NCBI RefSeq assembly: GCF_041521385.1 | Contig: NZ_CP168006.1 | Location: 2,848,295-2,912,294, forward strand | Origin: Alcaligenes faecalis | GTDB lineage: Bacteria > Pseudomonadota > Gammaproteobacteria > Burkholderiales > Burkholderiaceae_B | Reading direction: 5' to 3' | DNA: 64,000 nucleotides | Shown here: positions 14,559 through 48,959 of the stretch, one piece after another | Numbering within the stretch: the stretch's first letter is position 1 | Layout of the letters: each line of letters opens with the position of its first letter | The notes under the pieces: generated by a model | The model's input: the letters and a program-made list of their open reading frames with translations, nothing else | The model's database searches: none | What the model was told of the DNA's origin: nothing | Program-made: the position numbers and the translations under genes

Positions 14559-14607
14559 CGTGGATACTCCGCCAAAGAGCTAGGGCCGTCCCTGTACTGA
14601 AAAAGCA

Positions 14608-14627
14608 GATCCAGGTCGTCCTGGATC
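14608..14627 (-). terminator. Terminator-like hairpin upstream of chaA
   Basis: An 8-bp perfect stem (GATCCAGG/CCTGGATC, loop TCGT) is followed on the minus strand by TGCTTTTTC. It sits 50 bp before the chaA start, so it may end upstream transcription or act as an attenuator in the chaA leader. A second AT-rich inverted repeat lies next to it. Confidence 0.4.
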
Positions 14628-19258: not shown

Positions 19259-19272
19259 TTGATTTAAATCAA
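19259..19272 (-). promoter_or_regulatory. Perfect FNR/ANR-type box before the aldolase operon
   Basis: TTGATTTAAATCAA matches the FNR consensus TTGAT-N4-ATCAA in every position and is fully palindromic. Its centre is 66 bp upstream of the aldolase ATG. A class II site at -41.5 would place transcription start near 19224, leaving a 25-nt leader with AAGGAG. Confidence 0.75.
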
Positions 19273-43062: not shown

Positions 43063-43655
43063 CTGAATTCCTTTGTGTGCAGTGCGAGCCAAGGCTCGTC
43101 AGTAGATTGATAGCCGTGATTGTACTTTTTGATGGGGGCTGTGTCGCGCCTGGATGGAAACCAGGGTTAGCGTGATTTGACGCGGATTTTTGCAGTTTTA
43201 TGGCTAATTTGAATATGAGGCCTGAATGTGGGCCTTGTTACTGCTTAGGGCATCTGACTGTGGTGGGTGCTGTGCCTGTATAAGGAATTCTATATAGATA
43301 AATCAGAGTAGAACCGTAGCTTTTGTAAGATTTAGACTGGTTTTGTTTATTGTCCTAGGATAAACTTCTGCTCGGTACACGGCATTTTGAAACAGATATG
43401 TCACAGGGGTTTACCCTCGCCTATAATGGCTGTCGCCCGTATACCAAAAAATGTCGTGCTCGTATTTGTTCTGTCTCAATAAACCTTGCTTTCAGTGGGG
43501 GCTTTATTCAGGCGTAACAGACGGGTGTTTTAACATGACGGCTCTCGCGACCTAGGCAGTCGCAGATTTTTTGCGTCCATGCTCTTTTGATCTGCGACGC
43601 GTCAAGGTGCCGCCGAGCTGCTTGGCAGCTTCACATTAACCAGGCCTGGATCATT
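43063..43655. promoter_or_regulatory. Promoter region of the oxidase operon
   Basis: About 590 bp with no gene lie between the divergent osmC and ccoN genes. TATAAT at 43422-43427 is the best -10 element on the plus strand, leaving a leader of about 220 bases. No consensus FNR box (TTGAT-N4-ATCAA) was found, although such a site often controls cbb3 oxidase genes. Confidence 0.45.
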
Positions 43656-45311
43656 GTGAATACCGTTTCAATACTGCTACTAGCTTTCATATTGTCCGTT
43701 ACAGGACTCTTTGTTTTCATCTGGTCGTTACGTCGTAACTTCTTTGACCACAGTCCCGCTGCTTCGCGTGAGATCTTCTCCAAAGGCGAAATCGGGCAGG
43801 TAGATGACCCTTCCGCCACCCCCGAACAACGTCAGGCACTTCAAGAAGAAATGGGTCGCAAGACAATTTCTGCTGAGGATCGTCAGGCGCTGAGCGTGGA
43901 GCTGGCAGAGCGCGTGGAAGCCGACCGCTCCTCCGCTAAGGTCACGTTCATTTTGCTGGCCTGTTCGGTCTTTTGGCTGCTGTTTGCCTCGACGGCAGGT
44001 CTGATCAGCTCGATCAAGCTGCACGATCCCGAATTTCTGACGCAGCACGCCTGGATGACTTTCGGGCGCATGCGTACGTTGCACCTGAACGGTGTGGCGT
44101 ATGGTTGGGCTCCAATGGCCGCTTTCGGGGTCGCCATGTGGATGCTGCCTCGTTTGCTCAAGACTCCCCTGATCGGTGCGCGTTATGCCATCACGGGCGG
44201 GATCTTGTGGAATATTGGTCTGGCTATCGGTCTGACATGTATCGCGATGGGTATCACCGACGGTATGGAATGGCTGGAAATGCCTTGGCAGGTTGATATC
44301 CTGATGGTGATCGGTGGTGCCCTGGCTGCCTTGCCATTGGTCTTCACCTTGCAAAACCGTCGTGCTCACCACCTGTATGTCTCGGTGTGGTACATGGGCG
44401 CCGCCCTGTTCTGGTTCCCCATTTTGTTCCTGGTTGGTAACCTGCCTGCCGTACACGTGGGTGTTGAGCAAGCAACCATGAACTGGTGGTTTGGCCACAA
44501 CGTGCTGGGTCTGTTCTACACCCCTATGGCTCTGGCTTCGGTGTACTACTTCCTGCCCAAGATCATTGGTCAGCCTATCAGTTCCTACAACCTGTCTCTG
44601 GTGGGTTTCTGGGGTCTGGCATTTTTCTACGGTCAGGTTGGTGGTCACCACCTGGTTGGGGGTCCCGTGCCGCAGTGGATGATTACGCTGTCTATTGTGC
44701 AAAGCATGATGATGATCATCCCTGTGCTGGCGTTCTCGATCAACCAGCACTACACCATGAAGGGGCACTTCCGGACCCTGATTCATTCGCCTACCCTGCG
44801 CTTTATCGTGCTGGGCGGCATGATGTACACCGTCAGTTCGATTCAAGGTTCCTTTGAAGCGCTGCGCAGCATCAACACGATTACCCACTTCACGCACTTC
44901 ACGGTTGCCCATGCCCACATCGGCTTGTACGGCTTCTTTACCATCGTGATGTTCGGTGCCATCTACTACGTGATGCCACGCGTGCTGTCCTGGGAATGGC
45001 CTTACCCCAAACTGATCTCCCTGCACTTCTGGCTGGTTGTGATTGGTTTCTCCATTTACGCCATCGGCCTGAGCATTGGTGGCTGGCTGCAAGGTTTGGC
45101 CATGCTCGATCCGGCTAAAGCCTTCATGGAGTCGGTGTTTGTCACGATGCCTTACCTGAAGTCGCGCTCGATTGGTGGTGGTTTGATGACGTTGGGTCAC
45201 CTTGTGTTTGCCTTCCACTTTGTGGCAATGGCTTTGCGCTATGGCAGCCGTCGTATTGGTCCAGCCCTGTTTCACCAGCGCTCGGCAACTCGCAATGTAG
45301 TGGAGGCATGA
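43656..45311 (+). CDS. ccoN: cbb3-type oxidase catalytic subunit CcoN with CcoS-like N-terminal extension
   Basis: The haem-copper core has the low-spin His143 (RMRTLHLNG), CuB His281 (WFGHNVLG) with His331-His332 (GGHHL), the cross-linked-Tyr position Tyr325 (FFYGQVGGHH) and the haem ligands His419 and His421 (TVAHAHIG). These match CcoN, not NorB. The GTG at 43656 is the likely start (551 residues). Before the core, residues 1-90 form one membrane helix plus a charged linker. The segment FIWSLRRNFFDHSPAASREIF resembles the small assembly protein CcoS (FFWAV..GQFDD..PA), normally separate. The fusion is inferred from that resemblance. It heads an operon with ccoO and ccoP-like genes. Confidence 0.82.
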   Translation: MNTVSILLLAFILSVTGLFVFIWSLRRNFFDHSPAASREIFSKGEIGQVDDPSATPEQRQALQEEMGRKTISAEDRQALSVELAERVEADRSSAKVTFILLACSVFWLLFASTAGLISSIKLHDPEFLTQHAWMTFGRMRTLHLNGVAYGWAPMAAFGVAMWMLPRLLKTPLIGARYAITGGILWNIGLAIGLTCIAMGITDGMEWLEMPWQVDILMVIGGALAALPLVFTLQNRRAHHLYVSVWYMGAALFWFPILFLVGNLPAVHVGVEQATMNWWFGHNVLGLFYTPMALASVYYFLPKIIGQPISSYNLSLVGFWGLAFFYGQVGGHHLVGGPVPQWMITLSIVQSMMMIIPVLAFSINQHYTMKGHFRTLIHSPTLRFIVLGGMMYTVSSIQGSFEALRSINTITHFTHFTVAHAHIGLYGFFTIVMFGAIYYVMPRVLSWEWPYPKLISLHFWLVVIGFSIYAIGLSIGGWLQGLAMLDPAKAFMESVFVTMPYLKSRSIGGGLMTLGHLVFAFHFVAMALRYGSRRIGPALFHQRSATRNVVEA

Positions 45312-45318
45312 TTTAGTC

Positions 45319-45909
45319 ATGGAAAGCGAATACAAACTATTGGGCGGCGCCATGGTGACGCTGGCCCTGGCCACATCGGCTCTGGTCGTTGTCCCTTACC
45401 TGCAGGTTAAAAGAGTGGAGCCCTCTCCAGGGCTCAAGCCTTACACCGAGGTAGAACTGCGCGGCCGTCAGGAATACATCGACATGGGCTGTGTTTACTG
45501 TCACTCGCAGCAGCCGCGCAGCCAGAACCAGGCTCCCGACTTCCAGCGTGGCTGGGGTCGTGCTTCAGTGGCAGGCGACTACTATTACGACACCCCTCAT
45601 TTGCTCGGCACCATGCGTACCGGCCCTGACTTGCTCAATATTGGCGCACGTCAGCCTAGCGTGGACTGGCACCTGGGTCACTTGTATCAGCCTCGTGCTT
45701 ACACCCCTGGCAGCAATATGCCTTCTTACCCCTTCATGTTCGAGCTCAAGGACAAGGCAGAGGAAGGCGATAAGGTTGTCAATTTGCCCGGCGAGTTCGC
45801 ACCTGAGGGCAAGGTGGTTGTGGCCAAGCAAGAGGCCCTGGACCTGGTTCAATACCTGTTGGCGCTGGATCGTACGTATCCCGTATCGCCAGCCAGTGTT
45901 ATCAAATAA
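45319..45909 (+). CDS. ccoO: cbb3 oxidase monohaem cytochrome c subunit CcoO
   Basis: The 196-residue protein has an N-terminal membrane anchor (10-28) and a CxxCH haem site (Cys58, Cys61, His62 in CVYCHSQQPR), followed by CcoO marks (DYYYDTPHLLGTMRTGPDLLNIGARQ and the Met/loop region). It accepts electrons for CcoN in the periplasm. The start is 7 bp after ccoN, with GGAGG 12 bases before the ATG. A GC-rich hairpin separates it from the next gene. Confidence 0.95.
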   Translation: MESEYKLLGGAMVTLALATSALVVVPYLQVKRVEPSPGLKPYTEVELRGRQEYIDMGCVYCHSQQPRSQNQAPDFQRGWGRASVAGDYYYDTPHLLGTMRTGPDLLNIGARQPSVDWHLGHLYQPRAYTPGSNMPSYPFMFELKDKAEEGDKVVNLPGEFAPEGKVVVAKQEALDLVQYLLALDRTYPVSPASVIK

Positions 45910-45929
45910 ACAGGCATTGTTGAGCTAGC

Positions 45930-45950
45930 GCGCCCCGCAGGGCGGGGCGC
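45930..45950 (+). repeat. Intercistronic hairpin between ccoO and ccoP-like gene
   Basis: GCGCCCCGC and GCGGGGCGC (45930-45950) form a 9-bp GC stem with a 3-nt loop. It lacks a T-run and lies 14 bp before the next start, so it may slow exonucleases or balance subunit levels. Confidence 0.5.
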
Positions 45951-45964
45951 CTCGGAGAATTAGA

Positions 45965-46552
45965 ATGAGCGACAATCGTAAGTATGAAGCACAGCTGCGT
46001 GAGCATGCCGATCCGGAAGAGAATGCAGCGCCGATCCCTTGGGTGGTTCTGCTGATCATTGCAGGTTTGTTCCTGTGGGGCATTTACTATATTTTCAGCA
46101 GCGACCTGAGCCATGATTCAACCGTGGGCGACAACCGTATCGTTGCCGACTTCGAATTGCCAGAAGGCGCGGTAGATGGTCAGCAATTGTTCGTAGCCCA
46201 GTGTGCCGCCTGTCACCAGGCAACGGGCGCAGGTGTTCCTGGCGTATTCCCTCCACTGGTCGGTTCCGAGTGGGTGCTGCGCAAACCAGAAGTCTTGGTC
46301 CAGATCATGCTGCATGGTGTGACCGGTGAACTTACCGTCAAGGGTAATAAGTACAATGGTGCAATGCCTGAGTTCCGCGAGAAGTTCAACGACGAGGAAA
46401 TGACGGCCGTTGTTAATTACCTGCGTACAGAATTGGGTGGCAATAGCGCCGATCCTGTAGACGTGGCCTTTGTCAAAGCCGAACGTGAAAAAACAGCTGA
46501 TAAAACCGACGCCTGGAACGGGGATGCCGACTTGGCTCCCATGGAAGAGTAG
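45965..46552 (+). CDS. ccoP: Monohaem CcoP-like cytochrome c subunit
   Basis: The 195-residue protein has one membrane segment (25-46) and a single CxxCH (Cys80, Cys83, His84 in CAACHQATGAG) with a probable axial Met134 (NGAMPEF). True CcoP (about 300 residues) carries two haems and FixP-like domains. Here only one haem domain is present, so this is a reduced form and the symbol is by position and resemblance. The last ~40 residues are polar. It likely delivers electrons to CcoO/CcoN. Confidence 0.82.
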   Translation: MSDNRKYEAQLREHADPEENAAPIPWVVLLIIAGLFLWGIYYIFSSDLSHDSTVGDNRIVADFELPEGAVDGQQLFVAQCAACHQATGAGVPGVFPPLVGSEWVLRKPEVLVQIMLHGVTGELTVKGNKYNGAMPEFREKFNDEEMTAVVNYLRTELGGNSADPVDVAFVKAEREKTADKTDAWNGDADLAPMEE

Positions 46553-46573
46553 GACTGCAATGATGGGCCAGCG

Positions 46574-47209
46574 ATGAGACTGTTTATAAGTATTCTCCTG
46601 GTTTTTGCCCTGGGTATTGGGGCTCTGGCCCATCTGACGCAAGGGTTTACTGCCCTGACCGCCGAGACGGCCCGTCGCAATGATGTCGCCGCTTCGCCGC
46701 GTCTGATTTCCGATGTCGACGTACTGCTCCCGGCCGGGGGCAGTACTCAGCTAAGTTCCCTGCTGCAAAATGATGGTCGCATCACCATCGTCAATTTCAT
46801 CTATACCCGCTGCGTCACGCTATGTCTGGCGATGGGCTCGGAGTATCAGCAACTGCAAAAAGCCATTGTGGACGAAGGCTTGCAGGATCGTATCCGCCTG
46901 CTGAGCATTAGTTTCGATCCCACCGATTCGCCTGATCACCTGCGCCGCTACAGCAAAACCATGAAGGCCAATTCGGACGTCTGGCAATTTGTCACCATGA
47001 TGCCTGGCGAACAGCGCCAGCGTGTGCTGGATGATTTTGGCATTATCGTGATTCCCGCCCCTTTTGATGAGTACGAGCACAACGCGGCCTATCACGTCGT
47101 TAGCCCCGAACCGCGACTGGGGCGTATCGTGGATTATGGTGAGCCTATGCTGGCCCTGGCCTACGCCAAACGGGCCTTAGAGGACCTGAACAAGACGGAG
47201 GGACCGTAA
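46574..47209 (+). CDS. SCO1/SenC-family copper chaperone
   Basis: The 211-residue protein has an N-terminal membrane anchor and a thioredoxin-like domain with the CxxxC motif (Cys80, Cys84 in RCVTLC) and the third copper ligand His174 (AAYHVVSPEP). Sco proteins load copper in haem-copper oxidases, most often the CuA site; CcoN has only CuB, so the role here is likely CuB assembly or redox protection. The stop overlaps the next start (TAATG). Confidence 0.9.
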   Translation: MRLFISILLVFALGIGALAHLTQGFTALTAETARRNDVAASPRLISDVDVLLPAGGSTQLSSLLQNDGRITIVNFIYTRCVTLCLAMGSEYQQLQKAIVDEGLQDRIRLLSISFDPTDSPDHLRRYSKTMKANSDVWQFVTMMPGEQRQRVLDDFGIIVIPAPFDEYEHNAAYHVVSPEPRLGRIVDYGEPMLALAYAKRALEDLNKTEGP

Positions 47210-47844
47210 TGTCGTTGAAACGTGTTGTTGCACCCTCTACGGTACGTCCCTATTTAGGTAGCGCGCTGGCCTTGCTGGCTGCCGTGCTGTTTGCGTGTGC
47301 TGCGTTTTGGGATCGTCCTCTGACGGTCTCCATGAGCTTGCACATGCTGGTGCACATACCACTGCTGGTGCTTTCGGGCGTTGCCCTGCAGCTAGCCTTG
47401 CGCTATCAGGGGGTAGGCCGCTCACCCGCCATGCAGGCCTTGCTGCGCCCTTATTACGCCCTGAATGAATATGGTTTGCCCGGCCTGATCCTGGTCAGTT
47501 TTGCGGCGGCTTACTGGATGGTTCCCAAGGCGCTGGATGATGTTCTGGTATCGCCTTCGATGGCCACTGCCAAATATATTGGCCTAGTGCTGATGGGCAT
47601 GTTGTTTATGGAGTCCTGGCGACGTGCCCACCTGGTGTTTCGCCTGTTTTTCTTTGGCAACTTCAGTTGGATGATGGCCATTGTGGGTTTGCTGTATTAC
47701 GACAATCCGGTTCGGCTCTGTAATTTCTATCTACAGTCCGACCAAGAGATTGCCGGCATAGGCTTGGTTATCATGGCTTGTGTGCTGCCATTGCTGTGGC
47801 TCTTGTCCGAGAGCAAGGCCGTGATTGCCTTTTTGCGGCAATAA
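47209..47844 (+). CDS. CtaG-like six-helix membrane protein
   Basis: The 211-residue protein has six membrane segments. SLHMLVHIPLLVLSG resembles the caa3-CtaG family, and so does DQEIAGIGLVIM near the C-terminus. CtaG-type proteins help assemble the copper site of terminal oxidases. It is translationally coupled to the Sco gene (TAATG) in the oxidase operon, which supports an assembly role. The family call is from short motifs and is tentative. Confidence 0.65.
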   Translation: MSLKRVVAPSTVRPYLGSALALLAAVLFACAAFWDRPLTVSMSLHMLVHIPLLVLSGVALQLALRYQGVGRSPAMQALLRPYYALNEYGLPGLILVSFAAAYWMVPKALDDVLVSPSMATAKYIGLVLMGMLFMESWRRAHLVFRLFFFGNFSWMMAIVGLLYYDNPVRLCNFYLQSDQEIAGIGLVIMACVLPLLWLLSESKAVIAFLRQ

Positions 47845-47871
47845 TACCCATTTTGTTTTGCAGGTGTCCTC

Positions 47872-48540
47872 ATGAGCCATACCGTTTCCAACAGCGATAC
47901 CCGTCTGTACCGGCGCAACAGCTTTTTCGACCAGATTCTGAGCGAGACGAATCGGGCTTTGGAAGTATTAGGGCGTTCGGCACGGGCGTCGCGCCCGAAT
48001 CCCGCTGGCAAGGAAGTGTCCGAGATCACGGCTGACGAAGCCCGTCATGCAGCAGGTTTGATGCGTGTGAATCATGTGGGCGAGATTTGCGCCCAAGCCT
48101 TGTACCGTAGCCAGGCCATGCTGTGCAAAGACCCGCAGGCAACGGAAGTGCTGTTGCAAGCCGCCCAGGAAGAAGTCGACCACCTGGCCTGGTGCGATGA
48201 TCGTCTGCGTGAACTGGACAGCCGTCCCAGCGTGTTCAACCCCTTGTGGTATGCGGGTTCTTTCGCCTTGGGTTTGCTCGCCAGCCGCGCAGGGGTCCCG
48301 TATAACCTGGGCTTTATGGCCGAGACTGAGCGTCAGGTTGAAGAGCACCTGGAAAGCCATCTGGAGTCCTTGCCAGCCACCGATAATCGTTCGCGCCGCA
48401 TCGTAGAGAAAATGCGTGATGACGAAATTGAGCATCGTCGTACGGCAGAAAATCATGGTGCAGCCGGTTTGCCGCCTCCGGTAAAAACCTTGATGCGCAT
48501 GATGTCCAAGGTGATGACGACCACGGCTTATCGCTTGTAA
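47872..48540 (+). CDS. coq7: Coq7 di-iron ubiquinone hydroxylase
   Basis: Coq7 hydroxylates demethoxyubiquinol in ubiquinone synthesis. The 222 residues carry the di-iron ligands in NHVGE (67-71), EEVDH (100-104) and a late EIEH (in RDDEIEHRRTAE). The membrane-associated helix LWYAGSFALGLLASRAG is typical. AGGTGTCC lies before the ATG. It sits after the oxidase operon, 27 bp from the CtaG-like gene, so it may be co-transcribed. Confidence 0.95.
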   Translation: MSHTVSNSDTRLYRRNSFFDQILSETNRALEVLGRSARASRPNPAGKEVSEITADEARHAAGLMRVNHVGEICAQALYRSQAMLCKDPQATEVLLQAAQEEVDHLAWCDDRLRELDSRPSVFNPLWYAGSFALGLLASRAGVPYNLGFMAETERQVEEHLESHLESLPATDNRSRRIVEKMRDDEIEHRRTAENHGAAGLPPPVKTLMRMMSKVMTTTAYRL

Positions 48541-48880: not shown

Positions 48881-48959
48881 CCAACTTGCCACGATTGTCT
48901 CCTCCACCCTCCTCCTTTGGTGGATTTGCCCGAGATCTTTAGATCTCGGGTTTTTTTTT
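48881..48959 (+). ncRNA. Candidate small RNA with anti-Shine-Dalgarno loop
   Basis: A strong orphan terminator at 48929-48950 (CCCGAGATCT/AGATCTCGGG stem) is followed by nine T, yet no plus-strand gene precedes it after the coq7 terminator. Upstream, CCACC (48904-48908) and GGTGG (48919-48923) enclose the loop CTCCTCCTTT, the complement of AAAGGAGGAG. A second CTCCTCC lies just before. This architecture resembles trans-acting RNAs with CCUCC loops that bind ribosome-binding sites. The 5' end is not defined. Inference from structure only. Confidence 0.5.

Follow-up and report, generated by a model that had tools for sequence, protein, structure and literature searches.

A divergent C-family oxidase operon with a CcoS-like domain fused to CcoN in Alcaligenes faecalis

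Gene content and catalytic core of the operon

The DNA analyzed here, a stretch of 64,000 nucleotides from Alcaligenes faecalis (contig NZ_CP168006.1, positions 2,848,295 to 2,912,294, hereafter the window), contains at positions 43656-47844 a compact oxidase operon of five genes (Table 1): ccoN, ccoO, a gene for a CcoP-like cytochrome with a single haem motif, and genes for a Sco protein and for a membrane protein resembling CtaG. The host genome is 4.15 Mb on a single contig and its CcoN is 99% identical to that of A. faecalis AU14. We propose that this operon encodes a divergent C-family O2 reductase in which a CcoS-like function would be provided in cis, probably together with a Sco/CtaG-like copper route of its own, and we put the probability of this reading at about 0.7.

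A first-pass annotation of the window had described this composition, including the mono-haem CcoP-like subunit of 195 residues and the one-base overlap between the sco and ctaG-like genes, and the coordinates and Pfam matches confirm it. The extent given there, 43656 to 48540, holds for the five oxidase genes and runs too far downstream in taking in coq7, which starts at 47872 (NF033656, 304 bits), comes after the operon in 27 of 80 related loci, and is a neighbour outside the operon. None of ccoG, ccoH, ccoI and ccoS lies within the block, as had also been claimed, and the gap of 55 bases between ccoO and ccoP leaves no space for ccoQ. An in-frame TTG at 43587 is a possible alternative start for ccoN, and the CcoP-like protein scores 40 bits against the ccoP model TIGR00782, below its cut-off of 180.

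Table 1. Genes and domains of the oxidase operon, in window positions
Feature	Position	Strand	Description
ccoN-like	43656..45311	+	551 residues, GTG start; predicted catalytic subunit, from a divergent branch of the C-family haem-copper oxygen reductases; CcoS-like domain at the N-terminus
CcoS-like domain (CcoN residues 1-48)	43656..43799	+	One helix and a tail with an acidic end
Linker (CcoN residues 49-72)	43800..43871	+	Joins the CcoS-like domain to the first core helix
ccoO-like mono-haem cytochrome c subunit	45319..45909	+	196 residues; FixO 1.6e-34 (Pfam)
ccoP-like membrane-anchored mono-haem cytochrome c	45965..46552	+	195 residues, one CxxCH; Cytochrom_C 1.3e-13 (Pfam)
Sco-type copper chaperone with CxxxC	46574..47209	+	211 residues; SCO1-SenC 2.4e-09, 37.7 bits against a cut-off of 22.8
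CtaG-like integral membrane protein	47209..47844	+	211 residues; M42, M46 and C171 invariant in 41 sequences; all-helical model

The catalytic subunit matches the Pfam COX1 model at 2.6e-78, and its closest solved relative by sequence is CcoN of P. stutzeri (5.1e-61). An AlphaFold2 model, built from an alignment of 84 sequences (mean predicted local distance difference test, pLDDT, of 84), fits the CcoN chains of cbb3 oxidases best, with a template modelling (TM) score of 0.88 by target length, followed by the nitric oxide reductase cNOR at 0.81. The family set comprises 242 sequences, of which 240 are database proteins and two are paralogues from the window's genome. Throughout this set the six histidine positions that ligate haem and CuB are invariant, as are Tyr325 of helix VII, which is also present in all 33 family rows of the tree described below, and the paired glutamates E205 and E208; the claim that the metal ligands and the tyrosine are kept is thus borne out across these sequences. 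With its COX1 fold, histidine ligands, helix-VII tyrosine and FixO-type mono-haem subunit the enzyme belongs to the C-family (cbb3) oxygen reductases in the broad sense. It is not a canonical cbb3 CcoNOQP oxidase, as there is no di-haem CcoP in the operon, the score against the CcoN equivalog TIGR00780 is 250.9 bits where the cut-off is 583, and the protein is not placed in the clade of ordinary CcoN.

In a tree of 71 chosen rows the family (33 rows, support 100/99) and ordinary cbb3 CcoN (23 rows, 100/100) form separate clades on long stems, and with seven long or outgroup rows removed the two are still apart in the remaining 64 rows (33 rows at 100/97 and 22 rows at 100/100, respectively). 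Two points weigh against leaning heavily on this placement: the tree program warned that long branches meet, and the qNOR-like gene of the same genome is not among the rows. On both trees the family nevertheless appears as a distinct, divergent branch of the C family outside ordinary cbb3, in agreement with the subtype that had been suggested from the window alone; the gene layout is common, but within the family's own clade rather than inside ordinary cbb3, and cNOR-like rows branch far away. Where proteins of this deep branch are named in sequence sources, they are mostly labelled simply as cbb3 subunit I. PMC6431628 leaves out the C family, described there as compact relative to the other families.

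Two further lineages came into view in the same comparisons. One (loci L017-L043) has a CcoN of mostly 468 residues with the motif NMQGGFQQTRAINWY, the tyrosine kept and no N-terminal extension; it is common in one family of our phylum sample and lies outside both ordinary cbb3 and the CcoS-fused family. The other (L079:6529-9254) combines a CcoN-like protein of 466 residues with a CcoO-CcoP fusion that carries three CxxCH motifs, and sits on a long branch near the family.

The N-terminal domain and its relation to CcoS

The resemblance of the CcoN N-terminus to CcoS is weak in the window protein taken alone and strong across the family. The Pfam FixS model matches 61 of 84 family members at E ≤ 0.1 (best 2.4e-5), and beyond COX1 and FixS only a single other Pfam model matches, in a single member. 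In profile-profile comparison (hhalign) the family N-terminus aligns with 18 CcoS sequences at a probability of 96.8 and a score of 45.8 over 42 columns, while 13 decoy profiles, taken from pieces of four operon partner proteins and from nine CcoN segments, score at most 23.2. The profile windows behind this score were anchored on a tryptophan; an unanchored repeat gives 45.5, against a mean of 12.4, a standard deviation of 3.3 and a maximum of 21.9 for 100 shuffles in which columns were permuted separately inside the helix and inside the tail, and the aligned span is 42-43 columns across the two versions. A profile of the N-terminus recognizes each of the 31 fused rows, at 35-86 bits, and does not match any of the remaining 40 (≤ 1.7 bits).

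A separate-gene counterpart points the same way. In two genomes of one genus (loci L193 and L194) a CcoS-like protein is encoded on its own, in a short frame that lies just ahead of ccoN and extends past its start, by 19 bases in L193 and 25 in L194. Against FixS this protein scores 24.7 bits in L193, above the cut-off of 23.1, and 19.2 in L194. The same two proteins reach 20.1 and 16.2 bits with the CcoS profile and 17.3 and 19.5 with the N-terminal profile of the fused family, and the CcoN encoded next to them falls within the family clade (100/99). From the profile-profile scores and this counterpart, the first ~48 residues of CcoN are best regarded as a CcoS homologue at the level of the family. 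The first-pass annotation had drawn the CcoS-like region as residues 1-90; the resemblance is real, and the domain is placed here at residues 1-48. In the structural model an N-terminal helix spans residues 3-26 (pLDDT 64-73), residues 51-80 are at pLDDT 82-91, and the first core helix extends from 73 to 123.

The 71-row tree places L193 and L194 outside all 31 fused rows with a support of 96/93, and if this fork holds the simplest history would be a neighbouring ccoS-ccoN pair that was fused once. The support for the fork drops to 80/58 without the seven long or outgroup rows, and our main claim does not include a single fusion event. No Sco or CtaG-like genes lie beside the separate-gene form, which counts against our main reading. 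By the locus numbers in a table of PMC10156729, CcoS adjoins CcoN in K. stuttgartiensis as well, so adjacency of the two genes is, as far as that table goes, not confined to this family. In the titles and opening abstract lines of the open-access papers listed, a literature search found none on a CcoN-CcoS fusion or on this operon type, and the passages concerned of PMC13253579, PMC10156729 and PMC8879329 describe no such fusion.

Distribution and genomic context

A survey of 84,980 genomes, each from a different species, gave at least 580 confirmed relatives, and the best 80 of their loci, mostly from Burkholderiales by record titles, were studied further. Next to ccoN these loci carry ccoO (78), ccoP (76), sco (74) and ctaG-like genes (73), with a single CxxCH in 78/78 CcoO and 76/76 CcoP-like proteins and CxxxC in 74/74 Sco proteins, including the Sco match of one locus (L143) that is out of place. 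The five genes are in order in 72 of the 80 loci, and six of the other eight run into contig ends no more than 520 bases past the last gene found; the remaining two are L143 and L147. Outside the operon only lineage-local neighbours are conserved. A globin-like gene occurs near the operon in one cluster of five loci (L098, L109, L119, L128 and L158), where that of L119 (10253-10630) matches Pfam Bac_globin. Under even sampling the distribution is patchy: in the order the family is present in 11 of 200 genomes at E ≤ 1e-130 (nine fused, two separate), and in the phylum in two of 299 at > 500 bits.

The genome of the window holds three copies of the family. Apart from the operon under study, there is a copy at locus L012 that is 62-63% identical (ccoN-ccoO-ccoP) and one at L013 that is 46-49% identical, in which ccoN-ccoO is followed by a di-haem cytochrome and a SoxA/TsdA-type cytochrome. 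This third operon (L013:9110-13286, + strand), whose di-haem cytochrome is weakly PdsA-like, adjoins an apparent two-component system, and its gene content points to sulfur compounds as a possible source of electrons for this oxidase.

The search for a second oxidase set proposed earlier finds an ordinary cbb3 set in the same genome: ccoN, ccoO, a probable ccoQ and a di-haem ccoP, accompanied by ccoG, ccoS and a gene resembling FixH. Two more COX1 genes are taken here to be aa3 and qNOR; these labels, like that of ccoQ, are based on translations and scores. Beside ccoS lies a gene (L011:8363-9349, − strand, near 388.4-389.3 kb) for a CcoI-like copper P-type ATPase, roughly 328 residues long, that matches only parts of the ATPase models, mainly their ends, has no DKTG in its translation, and seems to be without the phosphorylation/nucleotide-binding part.

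Regulatory sites offer a contrast that is suggestive only. With one mismatch allowed there is no FNR box between 41252 and 48058, and thus none upstream of the window operon. A perfect box precedes the ordinary ccoN by 76 bases (L011:8069), in a scan whose number of hits is equalled in 40 of 200 shuffles; the difference is no more than a hint about the physiological role. A perfect FNR-type box, TTGATTTAAATCAA, is present elsewhere in the window at 19259-19272, and the identical sequence recurs at L011:9366 near the ccoI-like gene. The window also contains a Guanidine-II riboswitch (14581-14627, − strand, 42.4 bits) and, downstream of coq7, a match to the Rfam family Betaproteobacteria_toxic_sRNA (48896-48958, + strand, 65.6 bits).

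Proposed maturation, alternatives and known systems

The enzyme probably reduces O2, working with two mono-haem cytochromes. Electrons would enter via CcoO and the short CcoP-like subunit, and O2 would be reduced at the haem b3-CuB-tyrosine site. The CcoS-like helix is predicted to lie beside the CcoN core with its N-terminus outside and its C-terminus inside, an orientation suggested by the two arginines behind the helix. According to passages of PMC8267372, CcoN of R. capsulatus requires CcoS for its haem b, haem b3 and CuB, a point cited there from other work; Sco and CcoS are reported to matter for the cbb3 oxidase of C. jejuni, and C. jejuni lacking CcoS has almost no oxidase activity, a defect partly rescued by copper. 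The fused domain would serve its CcoN as the separate CcoS does elsewhere, enabling the insertion of haem b/b3 and CuB, and copper would arrive from the periplasmic side via the Sco and CtaG-like proteins of the operon and not via the CcoI/CcoG/CcoS set. The Sco protein is of the Sco1/SenC type by both its model score and its CxxxC motif. The CtaG-like protein of the window has no Pfam match at E ≤ 0.1 (DUF1404 at E 0.87), and among 41 such proteins 14 match DUF1404 (best 3.8e-7) and 5 Caa3_CtaG (PF09678; best 3.8e-4) at E ≤ 0.1; M42, M46 and C171 are invariant in these sequences, H45 is nearly so, and the model, all-helical at pLDDT 92, has no fold match in the PDB at E ≤ 0.001. The more far-reaching proposal that this is a branch with self-contained maturation, in which CcoS is a permanent domain of CcoN and the Sco and DUF1404/CtaG-like proteins deliver periplasmic copper to CuB in place of CcoG/CcoI/CcoS, is tentative, and we rate it at slightly less than even odds.

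The identity of the N-terminal domain and the substrate of the enzyme are both open to other interpretations. The extra helix might have nothing to do with CcoS and instead be comparable to transmembrane helix 0 (TMH0) of R. capsulatus CcoN, which according to a passage of PMC7876108 likewise has an extra N-terminal helix, there termed specific to that organism. Several results speak for caution about the CcoS assignment: the window protein by itself reaches only 14 bits against FixS (PF03597, cut-off 23.1, E 0.04) and 14.9 against TIGR00847 (cut-off 28.35), and the usual GQFDD motif is degraded in it; of the 31 fused rows just 17 are matched at E ≤ 0.03 by the model built from 18 CcoS sequences, and the paralogue at L012 has E 67 with it, yet scores 24.8 bits, below cut-off, with TIGR00847; the N-terminal profile was built with 16 of the 31 fused rows, leaving 15 that are independent; four of 240 proteins (anchored) and two (unanchored) were left out of the profiles; and four of 22 CcoS loci, having no motif-bearing sequence, were omitted from the CcoS set, and L063 is a fragment. 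The TMH0 explanation is nevertheless very improbable, given that the profile-profile score is far above the decoys and shuffles and that the separate-gene form matches FixS and both profiles. TMH0 as the source of the extension was rejected, since the alignment of the whole-family profile with R. capsulatus CcoN does not begin until residue 65 of the chain (profile position 82) and the extra helix, at residues 25-53 by the same passage of PMC7876108, lies before that match and has none of its own. A role in nitric oxide reduction or detoxification, raised in the first-pass annotation, could draw on the fold that the C family has in common with the nitric oxide reductases and on four named carriers whose species names are denitrificans, nitritireducens or nitroreducens. 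It is not borne out, and we consider it just as remote: Tyr325 is present throughout the family, four cNOR-like rows have no tyrosine and carry a helix-VI glutamate that is absent from the family, and they branch far from it in the tree. A link to denitrification was also tried and rejected, as NosZ (E ≤ 1e-20), found in 31 of 200 genomes of the order, co-occurs with the family in one of 11 carriers where about 1.7 would be expected. NO reduction is thus disfavoured. In four genomes (G402, G404, G446 and G111) a second COX1 gene has the look of cNOR, with a mono-haem cytochrome adjoining (L197, L199 and L201 scanned) and a CbbQ/NirQ/NorQ ATPase in L197 and L201.

The remaining alternative accepts a cbb3-type oxidase and has it matured by the ordinary ccoGHIS products, with the N-terminal domain vestigial or structural and the Sco and CtaG-like proteins accessory. 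Help in trans is possible in the window's genome, where the ordinary cbb3 set with ccoG and ccoS is present, and in the order sample ccoG occurs together with a further above-cut-off CcoS match in nine of the 11 carriers (seven fused, two separate); the other two, G404 and G446, have neither. Further points on this side are that no sco or ctaG-like gene is in view beside the L012 and L013 copies, and that both genes are missing from the 4788 bases that follow at L147, the second copy of A. pakistanensis. Set against them are four genomes of a single genus (G404, G446, G540 and G541) that carry the complete five-gene operon and have neither ccoG nor any other CcoS-like sequence. The fused gene occurs in these four of 85 genomes of the genus and ccoG in none of the 85; a fifth match, in G596, is unfused and of 31% only. 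In all four carriers, searched for ccoG and CcoS, the CcoN N-terminus is the only CcoS-like sequence at E ≤ 0.1. COX1 searches of G404 and G446 give nothing that scores like an ordinary CcoN, with one weaker match in G404 (176 bits), and in G540 and G541 nothing but the fused gene reaches E ≤ 1e-50. These carriers, which may reflect one event and not four independent cases, include one genome (G541) that is 80% complete, and both facts temper their weight. FixS also remains detectable in most family members, and sco and ctaG-like genes keep their place in most loci, which argues against a vestigial domain and merely accessory partners. Since carriers without ccoG or another CcoS-like sequence exist, an autonomous assembly route is the better reading, and maturation by ccoGHIS with a vestigial domain is unlikely. 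The separate assembly route that had been suggested for this operon is supported circumstantially.

If maturation in this branch is self-contained, CcoS would be a local chaperone that works one-to-one on CcoN and not a shared copper-export factor. The natural fusion indicates that CcoS acts on CcoN itself, with one copy per enzyme. Such a cassette allows the role of CcoS and that of the Sco/CtaG-like pair to be examined apart from ccoGHI, and the built-in piece offers a natural route to asking what the poorly understood CcoS helper does. By their sequences, an oxidase with a CcoS-like piece inside it and copper-delivery genes of its own represents a distinct branch of the bacterial oxygen-consuming enzymes.

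Compared with known systems, the operon shares with canonical cbb3 oxidases the COX1 fold, histidine ligands, helix-VII tyrosine, paired glutamates and FixO-type subunit, but differs in its own clade, the fused CcoS-like domain, the single haem motif of the CcoP-like subunit and the lack of CcoQ. Position 397, which aligns with E323 of P. stutzeri CcoN, is Gln in 207 of 242 family sequences, where each of the 23 ordinary cbb3 rows has Glu; as Glu is kept in the other 35 of the 242, this exchange was rejected as a defining mark and is merely a tendency. To cNOR and qNOR the likeness is one of fold; the four cNOR-like rows have no such tyrosine and do have the helix-VI glutamate. The N-terminal domain resembles CcoS/FixS (PF03597, TIGR00847) in its one helix, the basic residues behind it, a conserved Ala-x-x-Ile and an acidic end, but it is fused to CcoN, scores below the curated cut-offs and has a degraded GQFDD. 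Like Sco1/SenC, Caa3_CtaG and DUF1404 systems, the operon combines a CxxxC Sco with a membrane protein bearing conserved His and Met residues; while the window's CtaG-like protein matches neither membrane-protein model, some of its relatives do, and here the two genes are encoded in a C-family oxidase operon.

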